Positions 7,933-63,480 of a stretch of 64,000 nucleotides of DNA are shown here, piece after piece. The notes under the pieces were generated by a model, which did not search any database, was not told the DNA's origin, and saw only the letters and a list, made by a program, of their open reading frames with translations. This DNA is from Rugalucina vietnamica (lineage: Eukaryota; Mollusca; Bivalvia; Lucinida; Lucinidae), in the NCBI GenBank assembly GCA_964017185.1, contig OZ024875.1, forward strand, positions 33,117,456 to 33,181,455, given 5' to 3'. The translations under genes and the position numbers were made by a program. Within the stretch, counting starts at the first letter, position 1. Every line of letters begins with the position of its first letter.

Positions 7933-8218
7933 CTAAATAACAAAAACAGCAACAAAAATAAGAAAACATATTGACAGCGCACAGGAGGCTGGTTGGCAGG
8001 TTTTGAACCAACCCAATATCCGGTCCATCCTCAAAGAAATTATAAGTTTGCTGTGCTCCCATACACACAGTGGATAGCCCAAGTGGCACCTGACAGGGCT
8101 GCCATGCTGAGATGGAAACAAAATTCCCTGACATTTCCCTGTCATTGAACTATGAATTAATTTCCAAAACACAGCACTTGAAGAAAAAATGAGTTGATTA
8201 TCTATAACATAAGGAAGT

Positions 8219-8332
8219 GTTCTATCCATGTAGCGAAAACAAAGGCGCAGATCAGCTTCTCGGTTCCCGCGAAGCTGATCTGCTTCTTTGTTTTTGCATA
8301 TGCCAATAGTTGGTTTTCCAATGAGGCGGCTC
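8219..8332 (+). repeat. Family B MITE, right half
   Basis: Contains ATCCATGTAGCGAAAACAAA, the central palindrome GATCAGCTTC...GAAGCTGATC, and the end TTGGTTTTCCAATGAGGCGG. The left half is absent or unrecognisable. Confidence 0.6.
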
Positions 8333-8454
8333 ATTTATTACAGAAACTACAAAACACCGATCAGAACTTAATTATAATCAAATACACTTCTGGATACAAT
8401 CTGATTTAGACTGCCCCTAAAACATTGATGGGATGTAGACAAATTCCCTAAGTA

Positions 8455-16278: not shown

Positions 16279-16584
16279 CTACTGATTCTCAGATCCTCGG
16301 ATACAGAAATGAACCCAGGCCCCAGAGCTGTAAAATTTCCATGTGGAGTATGCAGCAAGGGATGCTATTGGCGGCAACGTGCCATCTGTTGTGACAGTTG
16401 TGAGACATGGTACCATGCACAATGCTTGAACATGAGGAATGAAATCTACCTCCCATACACGAGGTCTGACGAAACATTACCTGCTTTAACTGTGGTATCC
16501 CAAATTTCTCAAGTGGATTATTTGACACAGTGTGTGGAAATTCAGTTACCAGCCCCACTACTAATAACAGCCAAGGCTCCATAA
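16279..16584 (+). pseudogene. LINE N-terminal segment: 2A-like motif and PHD finger
   Basis: Reading in the frame of the ATG at 16309, the product is LLILRSSDTEMNPGP. DTEMNPGP fits the 2A consensus DxExNPGP, at which ribosomes skip the Gly-Pro bond. An in-frame TAG at 16276 cuts the upstream reading. After it come FPCGVCSKG, a gap, and CCDSCETWYHAQC, a C-x2-C, C-x2-C, H-x2-C zinc-finger pattern of PHD type as found in the first part of CR1-like elements. The frame stops at 16584; the endonuclease continues in another frame. Confidence 0.7.
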
Positions 16585-16734
16585 AATCATCCATTTGGAG
16601 CAGTGACATCCCTGAGTCTGACCGTAGCAGTTCCTCATGCAACATATCAGATCTCTCAAGCATCAACAGCCCCTCACCCAATAACTCCTCCGCCATTGAA
16701 GATGAAAGGCACCCTCTATGCTCAAGTCCCACAA

Positions 16735-17821
16735 GGAAGACTCCCCGGAAACTTGGTTCAAGCAATGTCAAACTGGCATCCATCAACATCCAGAGTGTGA
16801 TGAGTGCTAAAAAGAAACCTAGTTTTTGGAATTTCCTAGACACCGTAGATGCTGACATTGTTTGCGGATGCGAGACTTGGCTATCATCCTCTGTAGGAGA
16901 CGGTGAAGTATTACCATCAAACAGCCCATACAACGTATACAGGAAAGACAGACCTGATGGCTATGGAGGCTCACTCTTACTGATCAAAAGCGATATCATC
17001 AGTGAACCCGTAGACGTCCAGACAAGCTGCGACATCATATTTCGGAAGGTCCAGTGCTCAGACTCCCAGACCCTGATCATTGGCTCTGCATATAGGCCCA
17101 CAGACAACGACATAGATTATGCCAAGGAGCTTGTAGACGTAATCCGGAATGTTTGTCACAAATACAAGGAAGTGTTGTATGGTTTGCAGGTGATTTCAAC
17201 CTCCCAGATATCAATTGGTCGAATAGTACTATCACTGGATATCAATACAGAAAACATGTCAACGAGACCTTTCTCGCCCTTCAAAGTGACTTAGCCCTAC
17301 ACCAGACTATTGATACACCTACCAGAGAGAATAATATCCTGGACTTGTTCTTCACAAACAGACCATCACTGGTAAACAGATCAACAGTAATACCTGGAAT
17401 CAGTGACCACCATGCAGTCTACATTGACTCTCATATCACCATGACAAGGCAAAAACCCGTTAAAAGGACCATCTTCATGTGGGGCAAGGCAAATACTCAA
17501 GGAATAAAAGAGATAAGCAGAGAACTCTCCAACTGTATTATCCAAGAGTACACGTCCAAGAGCAACATCAACGAAGTCTGGACATTTTTCAAGGACGGAT
17601 GCCAGAAGATAATCGAGGACAACGTACCATCACGGACCACCTCACAAAGATTCACACAATCCTGGATTAACAGAGATGTCCGACGTATCACTCGCCTGAA
17701 AAGACGTTGCTTTAGGAGAGCTAGGAGATCCAACCAATCCAAAGATTGGCTAAGGTACAAGGCACTGAAGAAACAAGCTCAGAAGACCTGTCGTGTGACA
17801 GCTACACCAATGACATGCTGA
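16735..17821 (+). pseudogene. LINE endonuclease (EEP/APE domain), frameshifted
   Basis: First frame (to about 17170): LASINIQSVMSAKKKPSFWN, then DADIVCGCETWL with the catalytic Glu, PYNVYRKDRPDGYGGSLLLI, and GSAYRPTDND. The chain then changes frame: FAGDFNLPDINWSNS, DTPTRENNILDLFFTN, and GISDHHAVYID. These are the asparagine, glutamate, GDFN and SDH motifs of the endonuclease that nicks the target for target-primed reverse transcription. A frame change near 17170 and another near 17795 make it inactive. Confidence 0.8.
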
Positions 17822-18067
17822 CGAATGACAACAAGAATCCAAAGCGCTTTTGGAGCTTTATCAAATTCCGGAAGAAAGAGCCCCTTTGAAGAAAGAAGGA
17901 CTCACCTTCTCAGACAGCCTCAACAAGACCAACATCATGGATGACCAGTTCTCTTCAGTCTTCACCCAGAAAGACATATCAGAGCTACCAGATCTCGGAC
18001 CAAGCACAACACCTAGTGTTCCACCTATAAAAGTAAACATCAAAGGGATCCAAAAGCTGTTAAATAA

Positions 18068-18147
18068 TAATAATTGTAAGATCCTTTGGAAGCAGTAAAA
18101 CATTTAAAGCAAGAAGATGGGCCATATTGTACAATTTCGGGTAATGA
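18068..18147 (+). repeat. Fragment of the 380-bp tandem repeat inside the LINE
   Basis: ATCCTTTGGAAGCAGTAAAA and GATGGGCCATATTGTACAAT match the tandem units at 52617-53500. Without it the LINE would read LLN-NLHHIKPHKATGPD. The shared GAACCTTCATCA at the right junction is native to both, so the join is at microhomology. Confidence 0.75.
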
Positions 18148-19652
18148 ACCTTCATCATATCAAGCCACATAAAGCAACGGGACCGGACAACATCCCTGGA
18201 AGGCTTCTAAAAGAAGCCGCAGATAAACTGTCACCTGGACTAGCCCATCTCTTCCAGATCTCAGTGAACAACGGCAAGATCCCACTAGATTGGAAAGCAG
18301 CCCTGGTTACACCAGTCTTCAAGCAGGGAAACCGTACGACCCCGTCCAACTACAGGCCAATCTCGTTGACATCAATTGTGTGCAAAGTCTTGGAACATGT
18401 CATCCACACCAGCGTCATATCCCACCTCGAGAGGAACGGCATCCTTACAGACTGCCAGCATGGATTCCGAAAGCGTAGATCATGTGAGACACAACTCATC
18501 CTCACCATTGATGACCTCGCTAAAGAACTAAACGACAAGCGGCAGATTGATGCCGTCCTACTTGATTTTTCCAAGGCCTTCGACCGCGTCCCCCACCAGC
18601 GACTTCTACTCAAACTAAACCACTACGGGGTACACGGGAACATCCTCAGCTGGATAGAAGACTTCCTGTCTGCCAGAACACAAGAGGTCGTCATTGAAGG
18701 CTCCAAGTCATCACCATCCCCAGTTACATCAGGTGTCCCTCAATATACAGTCTTGGGTCCTCTCCTGTTCCTGGCCTACATTAACGACATGCCAGAATGT
18801 GTCCAATCACAGATCAAGCTCTTTGCTGATGACAGCCTTTTATATAGGAGGATACAGGACAGTACGGACAGCCAACAGCTTCAGGATGACCTGGATAAAC
18901 TCCAAGAGTGGGAGCAAAAGTGGCAGATGTCCTTCAATGCAGACACGTGCGAGGTTGTCCGCATCACCAGCAAGAAGAAACCCTATTGCTCCGACTATTT
19001 TATCCATGACCAAAAGCTAGTCCTGAGAACAGAGACAAAATACCTAGGCGTGACCATATGCAGTGATCTATCCTGGAGCAGGCATGCAGACAATGTTACC
19101 AAGAAGGCTAACTCCACCATGGGCTTCCTCAAGAGGAACATTAGATCTGCACCTCAAGCTGCAAAGGAGACTGCCTACAAGACCTTCGTCCGTCCTATAC
19201 TGGAGTATGCCTCTTCATCCTGGGCACCTTTCAATGACACAGACAATGGAAAGATTGAGAAGGTCCAGAGAAGGGCAGCAAGATTTGTCATGAATGATTA
19301 CCGCCGTACCAGCAGCGTCACAGAGATGCTTACAAACCTTGACTGGGACACTCTGCAGGAGCGAAGAGACATTGCTAGACTCAGCATGATGTACCGCATC
19401 GTACACGGACTAGTCGACATACCAGCTGAGTCGTATCTAACACCATCTACTAGCACGACTAGAGGCCACAACTCTCGCTTCCGCCAGATCCGGACGTCAA
19501 ACAGCACATACCAACAGAGCTTTTTCCCGAGGACCATTGTACTTTGGAATCAACTCCCTCAGACTGCCGTGAGCCAGAACGCTGGAGGCCTTCCAGAACC
19601 AGCTGGCTACCCACACCTACTAAACGCCACACCATGTTTTTACCAGTTTTAA
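18117..19652 (+). pseudogene. LINE reverse transcriptase, 511-codon frame
   Basis: HKATGPDNIPGRLLKEAADK (from residue 18), PSNYRPISLTSIVCKVLEHV, DFSKAFDRVPHQRL (150-163), SGVPQYTVLGPLLF and FADDSLLYR (236-244) are the classic RT blocks with the catalytic Asp pair. The thumb and tail include ILEYASSSWAPF, KVQRRAARFV and LPQTAVSQ. Oddity: the usual Gly in the PQG block is Tyr here. The first 10 codons come from the foreign insertion, so the ATG at 18117 is not the element's own start. The tail ends by frameshift near 19570. Confidence 0.85.
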
Positions 19653-19792
19653 ACCTTTTGACCGATGTATGTACCTCTTTTAACCGTGGCGCATGGGCAC
19701 TCTCCACCACATTGCGAGAATACTCAAGTACTGAGGGAGGCAATTACTGAAGATGATGACGATGAACAACAACAAAGTAATTAATTATTATT

Positions 19793-19830
19793 GTAACGAG
19801 CGGCCGAGCCAAGCCACAGCAAACCCCGTC
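19793..19830 (-). repeat. Terminal 38 bp of the miniature LTR element, duplicated
   Basis: TGTAACGAGCGGCCGAGCC through CAAACCCCGTC repeats the LTR end at 19864, together with the preceding TAATTAATTATTAT. Confidence 0.6.
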
Positions 19831-19863: not shown

Positions 19864-20438
19864 TGTAACGTACGGCCGAGCCAAGTTACAGCAAACCCCG
19901 TCGGTGGAAAAGCATGCTCACCCACCAAGGGTGGTTTACTGCGCAATATAGTCGACACTTACTCGCTTCACAAAGTTTCGAGTTTCTAATTTACATTACT
20001 TGCACTTAATATGCCGCTAATACGATGCACCAGCGTATTCTACCAAGGGATACTATCCCGTCACATTACTTCCCCCTCCGAGAAGACTCGTCCCGAGTCT
20101 TGGCCTGGGGACTACATGGGTAAGGCAACTCCGGTCTGGCAGTTGTCATTATCCCACCGCTGCCACCAAATGAAACGAACGGCCGAGTCAAGCCACAGCA
20201 AACTAATGTCATTTGGCGTGTCACCAGTAAACTATTCAGATTCAGATTCAACTATTCAGATTCAAACCCCGTCGGCGGAAAAGCATGCTCACACACCAAG
20301 GATGGTTTACTGTGCTATATAGTCAACACGTACTCGCTTCACAAAGTTTCGAGTTTCTAATTTACATATTACTTGCACTTAATATGCCGCTAATACGATG
20401 CACCAACGTATTCTACCAAGGGAGACTATCCCGTCACA
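19864..20438 (-). mobile_element. Miniature LTR retroelement (TRIM-like), copy 2
   Basis: In minus orientation: LTR 20171-20438, internal 20066-20170 (105 bp), LTR 19864-20065 (202 bp). The internal part begins TTTGGTGGCAGCGGTGGGAT and ends GGAGGGGGAAGTAA, and differs from copy 1 at one base. The first LTR carries an extra insertion of about 65 bp of CTATTCAGATTCA-type repeats. No coding frame exists between the LTRs. A target duplication is not evident because both flanks are repeats. Confidence 0.8.
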
Positions 20439-30148: not shown

Positions 30149-30464
30149 TTAGAGGAATTTCATCGAGAAATGGAATAAAATATCAAAATCACTTCTGATG
30201 CCCCTTAAAATGACAATGGACACGCCCAAATGATAATGATGATTGATGAGAAAGTCGATTTGTCATATATGGGTTAAGCCTGAGTCTGTGTTTGATACAA
30301 AGAGTCATATGTAGGGTTTGCTATCACAACTCGTTCTTTTCCGTCCATGTTAAACATAATTTCTGGCTGCACAAAAGAATCTTGTGGAATATCTTGTTCT
30401 CCGTTTTGATACTTATAATTCTTTCTTCGTCTGAAATTAAAATAGACATTCTATGTAGTATTAC

Positions 30465-30978
30465 TGTGACGGGATAGCCTCCCTTGGAAAAATACGTTAG
30501 TGCAACGTATTAGCGGCATATTGAGTGCTTGTTATATGCAAAGTCTAAACTCGAAACTTTGTGAATCGAGTAAGTGTTGAGTATATAGCGCAGTAAACCA
30601 CCCTTGGTGGATGAGCATGCTTTTCCACCGACGGGGTTTGCTGTGGCTTGGCTCGGCTGTTCGTTACATTTGGTGGCAGCGGTGGGATGATGACAACTGC
30701 CAGACCGGAGTTGCCTTACCCATGTAGTCCCCAGGCCAAGACTCGGGACGAGTCTTCTCGGAGGGGGAAGTAATGTGACGGGATAGCCTCCCTTGGAAAA
30801 AATACGTTAGTGCAACGTATTAGCGGCATATTGAGTGCTTGTTATATGCAAAGTCTAAACTCGAAACTTTGTGAATCGAGTAAGTGTTGAGTATATAGCG
30901 CAGTAAACCATCCTTCGTGGATGAGCATGCTTTTCCACCGACGGGGTTTGCTGTGGCTTGGCTCGGCTGTTCGTTACA
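30465..30978 (+). mobile_element. Miniature LTR retroelement (TRIM-like), copy 1
   Basis: ATTAC is duplicated at 30460-30464 and 30979-30983. LTR 30465-30668 (204 bp) and 30774-30978 (205 bp) begin TGTGACGGGATAG and end GCTGTTCGTTACA; they differ by one indel and two substitutions. The internal part (30669-30773, 105 bp) has a primer-binding site TGGTGGCAGCGGTGGGAT 2 nt after the LTR, whose complement ends GCTGCCACCA as a tRNA-Leu 3' end does. A stem-loop AAGACTCGGGACGAGTCTT (30738-30756) and a polypurine tract GGAGGGGGAAG (30760-30770) follow. There is no gag or pol. It must rely on an autonomous Ty3/gypsy-like partner. A TATATAG in the LTR may be the promoter. Confidence 0.9.
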
Positions 30979-31262
30979 ATTACGTTAAAACAATAAATCT
31001 TCAAATGATATTGTTTCTCAAAATTCATACCCTTCATCCAAACAACCATGCATTTATATATAATTCTTATTTGTAAATACTCCTAAAATCTAGGTACGTG
31101 TCTTCCTCTGACACCCACTACCTATATATGTATAAGTAATTAGTACAAGTGTTTAATTTTACTAAAATTAAAATTAATTTTCATATTAAATAATGTAACC
31201 AACTACGACACTGAAAGAATGATTGAATATTTATTAAAAGTATTGTCTGTTCTGGCTAAAGC

Positions 31263-31326
31263 CAAATAAAAGAATTTGGTTGCTTGTGTTTTATTATAAA
31301 CACAAGCAACCAAAATCTTTTATTTG
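31263..31326. repeat. Short perfect-arm hairpin abutting family B MITE
   Basis: CAAATAAAAGAATTTGGTTG and GCTTGTGTTT pair with their complements around TATTAT. Its right edge meets the MITE start at 31326. Confidence 0.6.
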
Positions 31327-31559
31327 AGCCTCCTCATGAGAAAACCAACAATCTGCATATGCGAAAACAAAGACGCAGATCAGCTTCGCGGTAACCGCGA
31401 AGCTGATCAGCGCCTTTGTTTTCGCTACTCGGATAGTACAATTCCTCTTCTACTTATAGCCAAAATTTCAAGCCTCTAGCCTGCTTCTGTTACTGTACAG
31501 GTCGGTTTGTGTCGGACCTGTTCGGAAACCACATTGTTGGTGTTCCCACGAGGTGGCTC
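31326..31559 (-). mobile_element. Family B MITE, full-length 234 bp, next to a splice donor
   Basis: Ends GAGCCTCCTCATGAGAAAAC and ACGAGGTGGCTC, with the central palindrome GATCAGCTTCGCGGTAACCG. It lies 13 bp inside the intron after the transmembrane exon (31573-31664). Confidence 0.85.
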
Positions 31560-31572
31560 AATTTTAATATAC

Positions 31573-36700: not shown

Positions 36701-39143
36701 TTGTGTGTTTATCAAGAAAAAGGCACAAGTAGGCAAAGATCAGGAAAAGGCGCAATCAGAAAAGATTCCCACTCCAAAAACCGAAGTGGGAAAAAACCAA
36801 ACCAACAATCAGGTACTTAACCATGAAACATATCGTAAGCCGAATGAGCAGCTATTTTCCCAATAGGTGGCCACTCAGTTACCTTAACTTAACTAAAACT
36901 ATGAAAACACACATAAAGCGCCAACAGCACAAAAAATTTTAAACACCAAGATATAAAACAAAAAGAACCACCACAGAAGTATCGCATTGGAACGATCAGT
37001 AACACAAAGTTACTGGCGGGCTTAAACCGGTTTTACAGGCGCCTAATCTCACCCTCAGCTTCTGCAGTGGTTCATAACATTTAGTTAGTTCTTCGGTCCT
37101 CGTGGTGAATCTCTAACTAGTCAATGAATCATCAAGAACAAACATATAAATCAAGATAAACATCCTGATGAATCAAAACCCAGGACTCACAGATTCAGTA
37201 AGCTGCCCGACGATGGAGATCCCTGGGCGCCGAATAACCTACCAACTCCGGAGCAAAAGAAAAACACCAGTTGGACCCCGGTGGGCCAAGCAACAGACAA
37301 GAAGCTCCGGCCCCAACCAACTAAAATGAATAGCTTTAAGTCGGGGCCATCATACAGTCTGACGTCCGACCCACCGGCGTGCAATTAAAGAAGGCAGCAT
37401 AGTTATCAACCATGATTGGGTTAAAAACTAAGCATGCAGATTGTCGCATAACATTCAAGTTATAACCTATACGTCTGTAACGTGTTATGATTTTTCTGAA
37501 TTGAAAAGAAAAATCATTAATTCCTTTAAGTTTCTTAAATTTGTAAACCAAGTCACCATAAAATTCAGGTTCCGAAAGGCCCTCACTTAAAAGCGTCTTT
37601 AACCCAACATTATATTTGGAAATCAATTCATAGTGTCTACGATAAAATTTAGAAAAGGTTTTTCGAAGTTTATGATACCGATAGCCCTGTTGGAGAAGTT
37701 TTGCCATTAAACATTTATTTCGAGCGTTGAAGTCTGTAACATGATTGCAGACTCTAGCAAACCTAATAAGTTGCGAAATGTATACACCATAAGAAGCACG
37801 ACGAGGAACGTCACCATCCAAAAAAAAGAAAATTTACCATATCAAAATCAAAGTCATCGGAGTCAAAGTGTCTCTTTTAGGATCTGGCGAGTAAAATTAA
37901 GTTGTGGTGTTTTACCTTGAGTGCAGTTGCAGCTGTAGTTTCCATGTGTATTCTGACAGCTGACTGAGTTGACACAGGTGCCGATCTCACACTCATCAAT
38001 GTCTACTGTGCATGTTACGCCTGTCCAGCCCTTCGGACAGATACATACACCATCTTGGCATATTCCATTATTCTGACAAGGGGTTGTGTCTATAGCCAAA
38101 CATATAATAAAACATTGATCAATAATTGGCACTACTTTAATAAATTTCCTTTATATCTTTTTGTCTCAAAAACAAAAACAAAAAATAAATAAATAAATGT
38201 AGCAGTTCAGACATAAGCCATTATGAAGCAATAAATAGTACCTTATTAACATTTTCTGTAAAAAAAATCAGTATCTTTGTAAAAATCGGAGGATACATGT
38301 TCCAGTGGCTTCCAGAGTTCTTTAATACTAGCTAGTGTATGGCTGTACGTTGGAGCATACCTGTGCACACAAAGCGAAACATTCCAACTAACTTTGGTGG
38401 TTTGGGGAAGGAGCAGCTCGGACCACCATTCCTTGCTCCACACCAAGACATGATTTCTAGCGACAAACTGGAAAAGGTTTTATCAAAGTACTTTTTATTT
38501 AGCCATATCATGAGATTAAGATACTTACTGAATGTATGATGTTCATGTCCTTTAACACTATTGTTAGGTATACGCTCATAAACCGTAGCAAATTATTCGA
38601 AAAAAAATGTTAGCGCCTAATAAAGTTTATTTATTTATTTTTTTTTTTTATGATTTTTTACACTAGCTGAATTCCAAATGGTAAGAAATAAAATCATATC
38701 CTATCAAGGATTAAAGTTAATTAACACTTTTAATTAGATGCCCTTTTTGTTGTTAAACCACATGTAAAATTGTATATGAAAGTTAAACAAACATAAAATT
38801 TGTGGGTCATCTTAGGAGACGGGCTTTATCCATCAAATTTATTATATGCATCATTTCTTACGTTACGTTATTATCTGTGTTCTTGTATGTGTATGGAAAC
38901 GCTGTGGAGAAGAAAGTTTGTATACTTTTTACCACTTGGTTAACAGAGACATTAAAGGAGGAAATCACTTTGCTACCCGTCCTTCCGCCAGAAACAGAGA
39001 CTAGTAAAGTGTCCTGAAACAAATCGATATGTATAGGACTTTTAAAAATAGATATAATATCTTCTCATATTTTCTTTGTAATTTAGGAAATTAAAATATA
39101 ATTGTTGTCTAATAGCTATTTATGATCAGTTGTGATTGTGACT

Positions 39144-61137: not shown

Positions 61138-63480
61138 TCAGGGACACTTTCTTAACATCTCAAAACGTTGCATATAGCAGTCATAAACAAACACTGACAA
61201 CTTTCTTATAACATGAGCATTTTCATTACTAAAAAGCCATATAAATTTTTGTACATCAGACATGCCACTAAAATTTACAAATAATTTACCTATGTCATTA
61301 AGGAACTGTTTCCTTTTGGTGCTAAATAAAGAACAATTTGTTACAAAATGGATTTCGTCTTCAACTTCAACTTGACATAAAGGACATAATCTTGCATCTG
61401 CTTGCACTTTTTTATAATGACCAAGTTCAATTTCAAGTTTATGGCAGCTTACTCTTAATTTTGTAAAAATTCTTCTTACAGAAATATCTTTAATTTATTT
61501 AAAATATGACTCTCTACATAGCCGATATTTGAACGATGGATATGTACGTAATTTTCCAGTTTGATTGTCCCTATTTTTGATAAGGCATTCATCCATTCAG
61601 CTTTATATCTTTTTATAAGCTTTGACTTTGCAACACTAGCCAACTTATCATTTGAGATAGATGATTTAGATATATTCAAATATTCAAAAAGAAAGTACAA
61701 GCTAGATAACCAATTCTTTTTCTTGTGTTCATGTAAATAACCATTTTCTTTCAAAGCTCCCTTCAGCAAATTACTTACATCGTTTGAAATTAGCCTTTCA
61801 AAATATTTAACAGTGACATAAAACACATTAATTATAATTGGATATCGACCTAGCTCTCCCATAACAGCAACATTTATGGTCTTTCTATGGACTCCTAAAA
61901 CATATTTCAAAACTTTGATATGTAACTTTTCACATGGCATGTTACAAAATGCATCAAAAATACTAAAACCTTCTTTCTTAACATTAGCTGATAAAGTGTT
62001 TATGGTTCCCCATATTTCACTACCATACAGTAAAACTGGTTTAACAGTATGATCAAATAAGTGTAAAATAATATCCACATTCTGATGCAAGTCTCCAAAA
62101 CATTAACTCAACTTAAACTGTGCCTTTAACGCTCTTTTATATAAATCGTTTTGACAATGAGAAAAAGTACCAGATGCTGAGAATAAAATACCCAAATATT
62201 TATATGACTGGACTTCTTCTATTTCTACATTGTTATACAAAAAATGCAGTTGGATTTTCTACCACTTTTACTAAAAGTAATAATTTGTGTTTTCTTCAAA
62301 CTGACTGTCAGCCCATTATCACAACAATAAAGGGTCAGTTTATTCAAGCAACGTTGTAAACCTGCCTCAGTCGTGGAAAGTAAAAGCAGATCATCAGCAT
62401 ATAAAAGGCAGATAAAGGATATACTGTCTAAAGAAACTTGATCTTTCTCATCAAAACATGAGGGAAGATCATTGAGGAATAATTTGAATAAATTAGGACT
62501 AAGGTTATCTCCTTGTCTTACGCCAACATTTTGTGAAACTTGTTCAGATAAATTATTACCAACCTTTATTTGTATACAATTTTCAGAATACATATTCTTT
62601 AGCACATTATAAAACAAGCCAGATATATTTACCTTGCAGAGCTTATAAAACAAAATATTGTGAACAACAGAGTCAAATGCCTTTTGAAAGTCAACAAAGC
62701 ACACGTATAGCTTACTATCTAGACTCTGGTACTTTTCAATTAATGTACGTAAAACAAACATATGGTCTGAGGTTCTTGCTTTCGGTTGAAAACCTATTTG
62801 TGTTTCATTAATAATTTTATTCTTGCAATCTATTATTAAGAACACTGCTAAATAACTTAGACATGCAAGACATTATTGATATACCTCTATAATTTGATGG
62901 ATTTAGAGGATCATCACCTTTATAAAGTGGTTTAATATAACTATTTTTCCATTCTTTAGGATACTGACCCGATGACAAGATGTGATTAAACAATTTAACG
63001 ATGTAAGATGTTAAAGAGCTCTGTCCACATTTCAACATCTCATATTTTACTCCATCTAAACCTGCTGACTTACCATTTTTCAATTTGACAATAGCTTGCA
63101 TAACTTCCTTTTCAGTTATTTTAAAATCCAGTTCTGTGAAAGTCCCGTCTCCATATGACCTTAGCTGTTGGTGGGACGTTAAACCCCAATCAACCAAGTT
63201 CTGTGAAAGATTTGTCCTTTTCTATATCGCCTAAACGTTTCTCAAAATCTGTATTTAGTCGCTGAAATTGACTTTTAACTGAAAATAATTTAGTAAAATG
63301 GGATATCCATGTATCACAAGAAATTTTATTACTTGGATCATCATTGTTATGTTCATCTTTAAGTTCTTTGACCAATTTCCAGTACTCTGATGGATCATCC
63401 TTGAGGAGCTCATTGTCACGGAGCCATAAGTTCCGTACACCATTTTGATACAAATACACAAGTTGAGTGGTATGCTACGT
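61138..63480 (-). pseudogene. Second LINE: reverse transcriptase and zinc-finger tail, degenerate, 5' truncated
   Basis: Minus-strand pieces: 63190-63459 (DPSEYWKLVKEL), 62817-63197 (GLDGVKYEMLKCGQSSL, NPSNYRGISIMSCMSKLFSS), 62225-62845 (CFVDFQKAFDSVVHNILFYK, NVGVRQGDNLSPNLFKLFLN, LLYADDLLLLS), 61476-62090 (KPVLLYGSEIWG) and 61138-61407 (CPLCQVEVEDEIHFVTNC, a zinc-binding motif). RT catalytic YADD is intact. Frames shift near 62830, 62100-62220 and 61440, and a SINE piece interrupts it at 63143. There is no endonuclease before the TA microsatellite at 63508, so it is cut at the 5' end. The superfamily is not certain. Confidence 0.8.
63143..63196 (+). repeat. 54-bp SINE 3' end inserted in the LINE
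   Basis: AGTTCTGTGAAAG is duplicated at 63130-63142 and 63197-63209. The insert ends GGTGGGACGTTAAACCCCAA then TCAACCAA, close to the GGGACGTTAAGCC end of the SINE at 49581. Confidence 0.8.

Follow-up and report, generated by a model that had tools for sequence, protein, structure and literature searches.

The window, a stretch of 64,000 nucleotides from the genome of the lucinid bivalve Rugalucina vietnamica, carries a member of a TRIM family whose structure, copy number, target site duplications (TSDs), traces of the primer tRNA, joins to other elements and single two-LTR hybrid with a TSD of its own are all recorded in the DNA of this animal. As for its movement, it is very probable that this gene-free element is transcribed from its LTR, copied in particles of Ty3 type with tRNA-Leu as primer and the polypurine tract (PPT) as the start of the plus strand, and inserted with 4-bp TSDs by the integrase of a helper.

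The whole element is 514 bp long, with two LTRs that are 98.5% identical around a short core and a perfect 5-bp repeat at its flanks; its features, in window positions, are the following:

30460..30464, no strand: left copy of the TSD, ATTAC
30465..30668, plus strand: 5' LTR, 204 bp, TGTGAC...GTTACA
30582..30588, plus strand: TATATAG in the 5' LTR, a probable Pol II TATA box, which recurs in the 3' LTR
30669..30773, plus strand: core, 105 bp
30669..30724, plus strand: 56-nt leader, common to the TRIM and to the non-autonomous family C, whose LTR is unrelated
30671..30688, plus strand: primer-binding site (PBS), 18 nt, matching the antisense of tRNA-Leu plus CCA, with a 2-nt spacer from the LTR
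30738..30756, plus strand: hairpin AAGACTCG-GGA-CGAGTCTT, 19 nt, 8 bp with a 3-nt loop, directly 5' of the PPT
30759..30773, plus strand: PPT, CGGAGGGGGAAGTAA, before the 3' LTR
30774..30978, plus strand: 3' LTR, 205 bp
30979..30983, no strand: right copy of the TSD, ATTAC

An earlier note, made from the letters of the window, had placed the element exactly, with its LTRs, core, primer site, stem-loop, PPT and flanking repeat, and its view that this is a TRIM layout agrees with every structural trait found: the element is shorter than 1 kb, its direct repeats fall in the range of ∼100–250 bp, it has a tRNA PBS, a PPT and a TSD, it is noncoding, and it has many dispersed copies. No frame of at least 120 codons overlaps it in the open-frame listing of the window, and the core offers merely 105 bp. 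The element is not a product of chance: neither the PBS context nor the LTR head had a match in 100 shuffles of the window, and a 25-mer across the LTR end and the PBS had 1,581 exact matches in the genome and none for the reversed control.

There is a second copy in the window, on the opposite strand (19864–20438), whose flanks have no matching TSD:

20171..20438, minus strand: 5' LTR, 268 bp, holding an insertion
20066..20170, minus strand: core, 105 bp, with one difference in 105
19864..20065, minus strand: 3' LTR
19792..19830, minus strand: extra fragment beside this copy, in which the LTR end (plus flank) is repeated

The neighborhood contains other repeats. Two near-perfect long hairpins occur at 31263–31326 and 31361–31425, the arms being 29 nt long and 97% complementary in the first, 32 nt and 94% in the second; the latter lies within a 41-nt, 78% inverted repeat at 31315–31570, and translated strings akin to this region were seen by eye at window positions 7933–8334 and at loci L072 and L096, which suggests, again by eye, that the hairpins at 31263–31425 form a palindromic MITE-like repeat. 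Two stretches that look like LINE reverse transcriptase, their frames broken or adjoining, were recognized by eye at 16470–19652 (plus strand) and 61476–63221 (minus strand). Finally, the Rfam model SECIS_1 scores 38.5 bits at 37294–37361 on the minus strand, a match that overlaps a 165-codon frame of the same strand (37336–37833) at its 3' end; this frame is possibly a selenoprotein gene.

Regarding the size of the family, the animal genome searched amounts to 1.09 Gb in 47 contigs. The search with the whole element gave 49 matches with 79–100% identity, from 40 scored of 2,605 candidates. The leader pattern matched 2,618 times and the LTR pattern 5,436 times (both with up to three mismatches), and the core is near-identical across copies. 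From the LTR/leader ratio of 2.08, solo LTRs are seemingly not dominant; this ratio is rough, the patterns being of unequal length and family C being included in the leader count. Among 19 two-LTR copies, the divergence between LTRs was 0–5.6% with a median of 1.5%, and young copies exist within the family; core length was 105 bp in 18 of these 19 pairs, which were chosen with a gap of 61–169 bp, a choice that favors uniform core length. Tandem arrays with three or four LTRs within one TSD were found at L030, L038 and L148.

The perfect ATTAC duplication described in the earlier note is present on both sides; however, its length is atypical, since copies of this family mostly have a TSD of 4 bp. 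Indeed, 13 of 17 complete-ended elements or arrays have a 4-bp TSD (L002, L003, L004, L007, L008, L015, L029, L030, L031, L033, L038, L074 and L148), the window copy and L041 have 5 bp, and two, both within L012, have none, so that a TSD is present in 15 of the 17. This sample is not random: eight loci were taken first as those closest to the window copy, and the 30 after them as the hits that come first on contig C1. The count leaves aside the second window copy, partial chains, chains running into further core or PBS (such as L016), the single LTRs L021 and L032, and any locus already counted.

The PBS occurs without the following TRIM bases at 71 places, of which 67 were read; gag-pol elements with the same PBS do exist, one of them with similar LTR ends. 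This one, family A, has LTRs of ∼1,101 bp, a 4-bp TSD (ATCG) and an open gag-pol frame of 2,001 codons; the domain scan recognized protease, RT, RNase H and integrase in it, while gag fell just under the cut-off. Its likeness to the TRIM covers an identical PBS, the same TT spacer, LTR ends TGTGAC...CGTTACA, a similar hairpin, a PPT of CGGAGG type and the length of the TSD. The alignment of its LTR with the window LTR is limited to 32 nt at the 3' end (78%, E 0.026), and with the TRIM LTR of L040 it comprises 38 nt of LTR end and PBS (92%). In family B, three frames together encode gag, protease, RT, RNase H and integrase; its 3' LTR was not found within 9 kb. Families A and B differ from the TRIM in their retroelement coding domains and in the bodies of their LTRs, which are unrelated to that of the TRIM.

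Three more families share the PBS, each defined from few copies, the domain scan having covered A and B. Family D, a relative of A, has LTRs of ∼1,140 bp and is 68% like A over 394 nt; no TSD was found for it in the stretch read. Family C is gene-free, with an LTR of 967 bp, a core of 179 bp and the TSD GTGG; its PBS and first 56 core nucleotides are nearly identical to those of the TRIM (94.6–98.2% in three copies, 82% in the fourth). Family E comprises four loci with a common LTR end and internal start (L064, L122, L137 and L140). Families A, B and D of the same genome have the tRNA-Leu PBS of the TRIM, and A and D also have the hairpin plus PPT; family A would be the best helper candidate, with family D second. 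Two readings of family A were dropped: an LTR of 228 bp, now placed at ∼1,101 bp, and its exclusion as helper on account of its 4-bp TSD, since 4 bp is the norm of the TRIM family. One family A copy (L070 and L074, C2:81163400-81172400), with LTRs identical over the 228 bp compared, has a TRIM copy ∼420 bp beyond its end, and at L107 (C17:4912866) an internal start like that of family A follows an LTR end of another kind, so that LTRs may have been swapped at the PBS here too.

Such resemblances of LTR ends, PBS and PPT type to families A and D would also be expected if the TRIM copies were repeated, independent internal deletions of one autonomous element and not a self-perpetuating miniature lineage. 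This explanation is barely conceivable: the near-identical core of nearly constant length (in pairs picked as above) speaks against it, and no gag-pol copy with the TRIM leader or hairpin was met among the sequences read. The leader followed by letters other than the core matched at 28 places, and the 22 read were 20 variants of the TRIM core and two runs into unrelated DNA (L026; L093/L096); a second search of this kind gave 43 matches, nearly all of them assessed by the two letters that follow. With letters other than the core in front of it, the hairpin matched at 32 places, 30 being core variants by eye and two unexplained (C10:51970382 and C11:7030684). No gag-pol element having the 56-nt leader or the LTR body of the TRIM as its own was found by these genome searches among the sequences read. 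L096 was considered as an autonomous relative with the TRIM leader and dropped, its large frame having PHD and endonuclease domains and being read as part of a LINE. Accordingly, independent deletion from one gag-pol element was rejected, as no parent with leader or hairpin was found among the sequences read and the core is nearly uniform; the earlier note had foreseen this outcome as an alternative, with the core always inside gag-pol elements and the two copies as separate deletions, and the genome did not bear it out.

As for known relatives, TRIMs have already been published for bivalves (PMC6934838), and what is new here is the family and its unusually rich fossil evidence; no earlier description of the family, its primer evidence or its hybrids was found in the open-licence literature, repeat databases being outside that search. 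According to the available part of that report, biv-TRIM is likewise gene-free, has TDRs of 202–218 bp and occurs as dispersed copies and as tandem arrays TDRx-I(x-1); its internal domain is 77–80 bp, it carries the motif TGATCCCAAAGGAC in most species, and it has no clear PBS and no known partner (PMC6934838). The element described here differs in its core of 105 bp, its clear tRNA-Leu PBS and its candidate helpers, and TGATCCCAAAGGAC is absent from both of its strands. Other likenesses, as far as the accessible texts go, are with SMART FRetro129 of grasses, a tiny LTR element whose PBS, PPT and internal sequence, shared with another element, led to the proposal of a helper (PMC3281118), but SMART is 292 bp long, has 85-bp repeats and is believed to depend on a Copia element for its movement (PMC10886601), while the candidate helper here is Ty3-type by domain content; and with Cassandra of plants, which forms tandem LTR-core arrays and, unlike this TRIM, has 5S rRNA sequence in its LTR (PMC7215508). 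The element had no match in viral contigs or in bacterial or archaeal contigs.

It is quite unlikely that the element is a TRIMp3 like Helenus or Ajax, whose LTR would contain a Pol III promoter. The accessible part of the relevant source describes the same TRIM layout for these elements, with animal Helenus making 4-bp TSDs, having a Gypsy-like PBS, being present in bivalves and thought to depend on Gypsy, and with Ajax using tRNA-Leu (PMC10886601); moreover, the TRIM LTR holds one A-box-like string, TAGCGCAGT. However, the tRNA-like or 5S-like sequences of Helenus and Ajax (PMC10886601) were not detected in the LTRs: beyond that single string the tRNA-derived A and B boxes of Helenus were not seen, GGTTC being absent from either strand of either LTR, which leaves no B box; the window has no tRNA gene according to ARAGORN; at the gathering threshold the LTRs have no Rfam hit, 5S rRNA (the trait of Cassandra and Ajax) included; and a TATATAG box is present. 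Judged by its sequence, then, the element is not biv-TRIM; nothing in it points to Ajax, and the A-box-like string is its sole likeness to the promoter of Helenus.

Concerning the primer, the earlier note had seen in the PBS the complement of a tRNA-Leu-like 3' end, and the 18 nt do match genomic tRNA-Leu genes with CCA added. The matching 3' half of the tRNA lies at 21 genomic places, of which 11 were read; of eight fetched for a tRNA test, seven are tRNA-Leu genes with anticodons AAG or TAG (ARAGORN), and one, L100, is a captured copy. With three more of the 21 (L055, L066 and L105), there are four captured-tRNA loci in all, where the LTR and PBS are followed by the antisense body of tRNA-Leu, continuing past the PBS. 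The LTRs are those of the TRIM at L055 (by BLAST) and L100 (by eye), and L066 and L105 belong to other families. G37 of tRNA-Leu bears a blocking methyl group. In L066 and L100, the captured tRNA ends at position 38 or 39, just short of G37; two shared letters make the end point in L105 ambiguous, and L055 may extend to position 35 (positions in our own numbering). The captured tRNAs resemble an over-extended minor plus-strand product of HIV-1, which stops at the modified position 37 according to the available text of a review (PMC13191261). L055 (C3:2179012) and L105 (C17:1384059) are also head-to-head palindromic pairs of two different families, joined through the captured tRNA-Leu, apparently by snap-back of over-extended cDNA.

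The leader is preceded by a different PBS, TGGTGTCAGAAGTGGGA, at 53 places (31 exact and 22 with one mismatch), among which the TRIM and C, sharing the leader, are not separated save at L148 (a TRIM array), L100 and L131; at one of these places the site is intermediate between the two. This switched PBS fits tRNA-Leu(CAG): its antisense occurs at 20 places, and of five fetched two are tRNA-Leu(CAG) genes and three have no gene. Swapping of the whole site between two leucine tRNAs is what copying primed by tRNA would predict, and these accidents in some copies indicate that a leucine tRNA would start the copying of the TRIM. The same 17-nt tRNA-Leu primer site is also held in the unit of a 67-bp tandem repeat at L041–L046 (C1:61272699-61273121) and C11:39527930-39528084; its LTR-end context is another one, and this is a different element family with a PBS amplified in tandem.

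Joins at or beside the PBS connect TRIM LTRs with four other families (B, C, D and E). The clearest is L024, with a complete TRIM 5' LTR (87% to the window LTR), the core and the 3' LTR of C (the latter 72% to its counterpart in L072), and TGTG on both sides; it is most simply read as having integrated as a hybrid. It is the one two-LTR hybrid locus with its own TSD, and a 4-bp match arises by chance once in 256. L036 consists of LTR_C, PBS, TRIM core, partial TRIM LTR, PBS, C core and LTR_C, flanked by AAAG; L040, read for its inner structure only, follows the same plan with LTR_B, PBS, TRIM core, TRIM LTR, PBS and the coding frames of B. The last 78 nt of a TRIM LTR are joined to family D at L126, beside a TRIM in the opposite sense, and a TRIM LTR end is joined to family E at L120; L131, L136 and L141 have another LTR and PBS, then a TRIM LTR, and at L050, L114, L118 and L133 a TRIM LTR end is joined to unidentified DNA. 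No hybrid of the TRIM with family A was seen among the PBS loci read, and the joins tie the TRIM to several families without singling out A.

The hybrids are most simply explained by template switching at the PBS in shared particles, and they indicate that the TRIM would be copied in particles that it shares with other elements. Gene conversion or DNA recombination between copies already integrated is an improbable source of them: in L040 and L036 two PBS copies inside another element do enclose a TRIM core with all or part of a TRIM LTR, and such composites could in part be due to DNA recombination after insertion, and tandem TRIM arrays exist that could recombine; yet L024 has two LTRs and its own 4-bp flank repeat, and the sequence shared by the partners at the joins, just ∼20 nt with B and D or 56 nt with C, is short for DNA recombination.

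A further signal shared among the families is the hairpin near the PPT, compared in the TRIM, C, D and A (the 3' ends of B and E were unread):

TRIM: AAGACTCG-GGA-CGAGTCTT, ending 17 nt before the 3' LTR, shuffle p 0.0095
Family C: AAATTCG-GGA-CGAATTT, ending 24 nt before the 3' LTR, shuffle p 0.01
Family D: TCATGCG-GGT-CGCATGA, ending 18 nt before the 3' LTR, shuffle p 0.002
Family A: AATCG-AGGT-CGATT, ending 20 nt before the 3' LTR, shuffle p 0.118, not significant alone

None of 2000 joint shuffles attained the summed stem length of 27 over the four families; the stems stand out less when compared with random stretches of the window (2.4%, 5.3%, 5.3% and 32%, in the order listed), and of 102 internal 60-nt pieces of family A, 23 have a stem of at least 5 and three of at least 7. 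TRIM, C and D have the center CG-GGN-CG in common, and the arms of all four hairpins differ between families yet are complementary. The exact stem is present in 39 of 52 distinct TRIM cores, with the loop GGG in 21 and GGA in 18, and the remainder show mostly one-sided decay; no covariation was found within these copies, so that the covariation rests on the comparison between families. In one of the four family C copies read, L056, the 3' arm is broken.

Because of its position and of the center shared across related families, the hairpin looks like a PPT-side signal, and these data argue for a real one, which probably helps to mark the PPT or to recruit the helper. The earlier note had proposed a role in dimerization or packaging of the RNA instead of a PPT-side signal, and this is possible though doubtful: the stem is nearly palindromic, two RNAs could pair, and in Ty3 RNA the dimerization site is in the apical part of a short hairpin, as described in the available text of PMC11381356; however, the 3-nt loop of the TRIM hairpin lacks such symmetry, the hairpins of TRIM, C, A and D lie close to the 3' LTR (they end 17–24 nt before it) and not in the 5' leader, and the 56-nt 5' leader common to the TRIM and C is a better candidate for packaging. 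Plus-strand priming would be at least as likely a role for the hairpin as these two. No description of a hairpin upstream of the PPT in Ty3-type elements was found in the open-licence literature, as far as it is accessible, which is no proof of absence.

In the cycle proposed for the TRIM, Pol II would transcribe it from its own LTR, and the RNA would be taken into particles made by Ty3-type elements. There, reverse transcription would start from tRNA-Leu and the plus strand would be primed at the PPT, after which the integrase of the helper, possibly family A, would insert the product, usually with 4-bp TSDs. More tentatively, the tRNA-Leu-primed elements of this genome, autonomous and gene-free, might form one exchange community, with the PPT hairpin and the 5' leader serving for recognition in trans and the PBS as the swap point at which LTRs and internal regions are routinely reassorted in common particles; the arms of the hairpin would be free to change, and the center CG-GGN-CG is conserved in three of the four families with a 3' end that was read. 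Were this the case, new TRIM types would arise by exchange at the PBS and not by deletion.

In conclusion, the way in which gene-free LTR elements are recognized and mobilized is still debated, and the part available of the work on biv-TRIM describes neither a clear primer site nor a partner (PMC6934838). The genome of R. vietnamica keeps traces of both, as captured tRNA, a switch between leucine tRNAs, hybrids and candidate helpers with matching signals; therefore, the question of the helper can be tested by sequencing the RNA of the particles.
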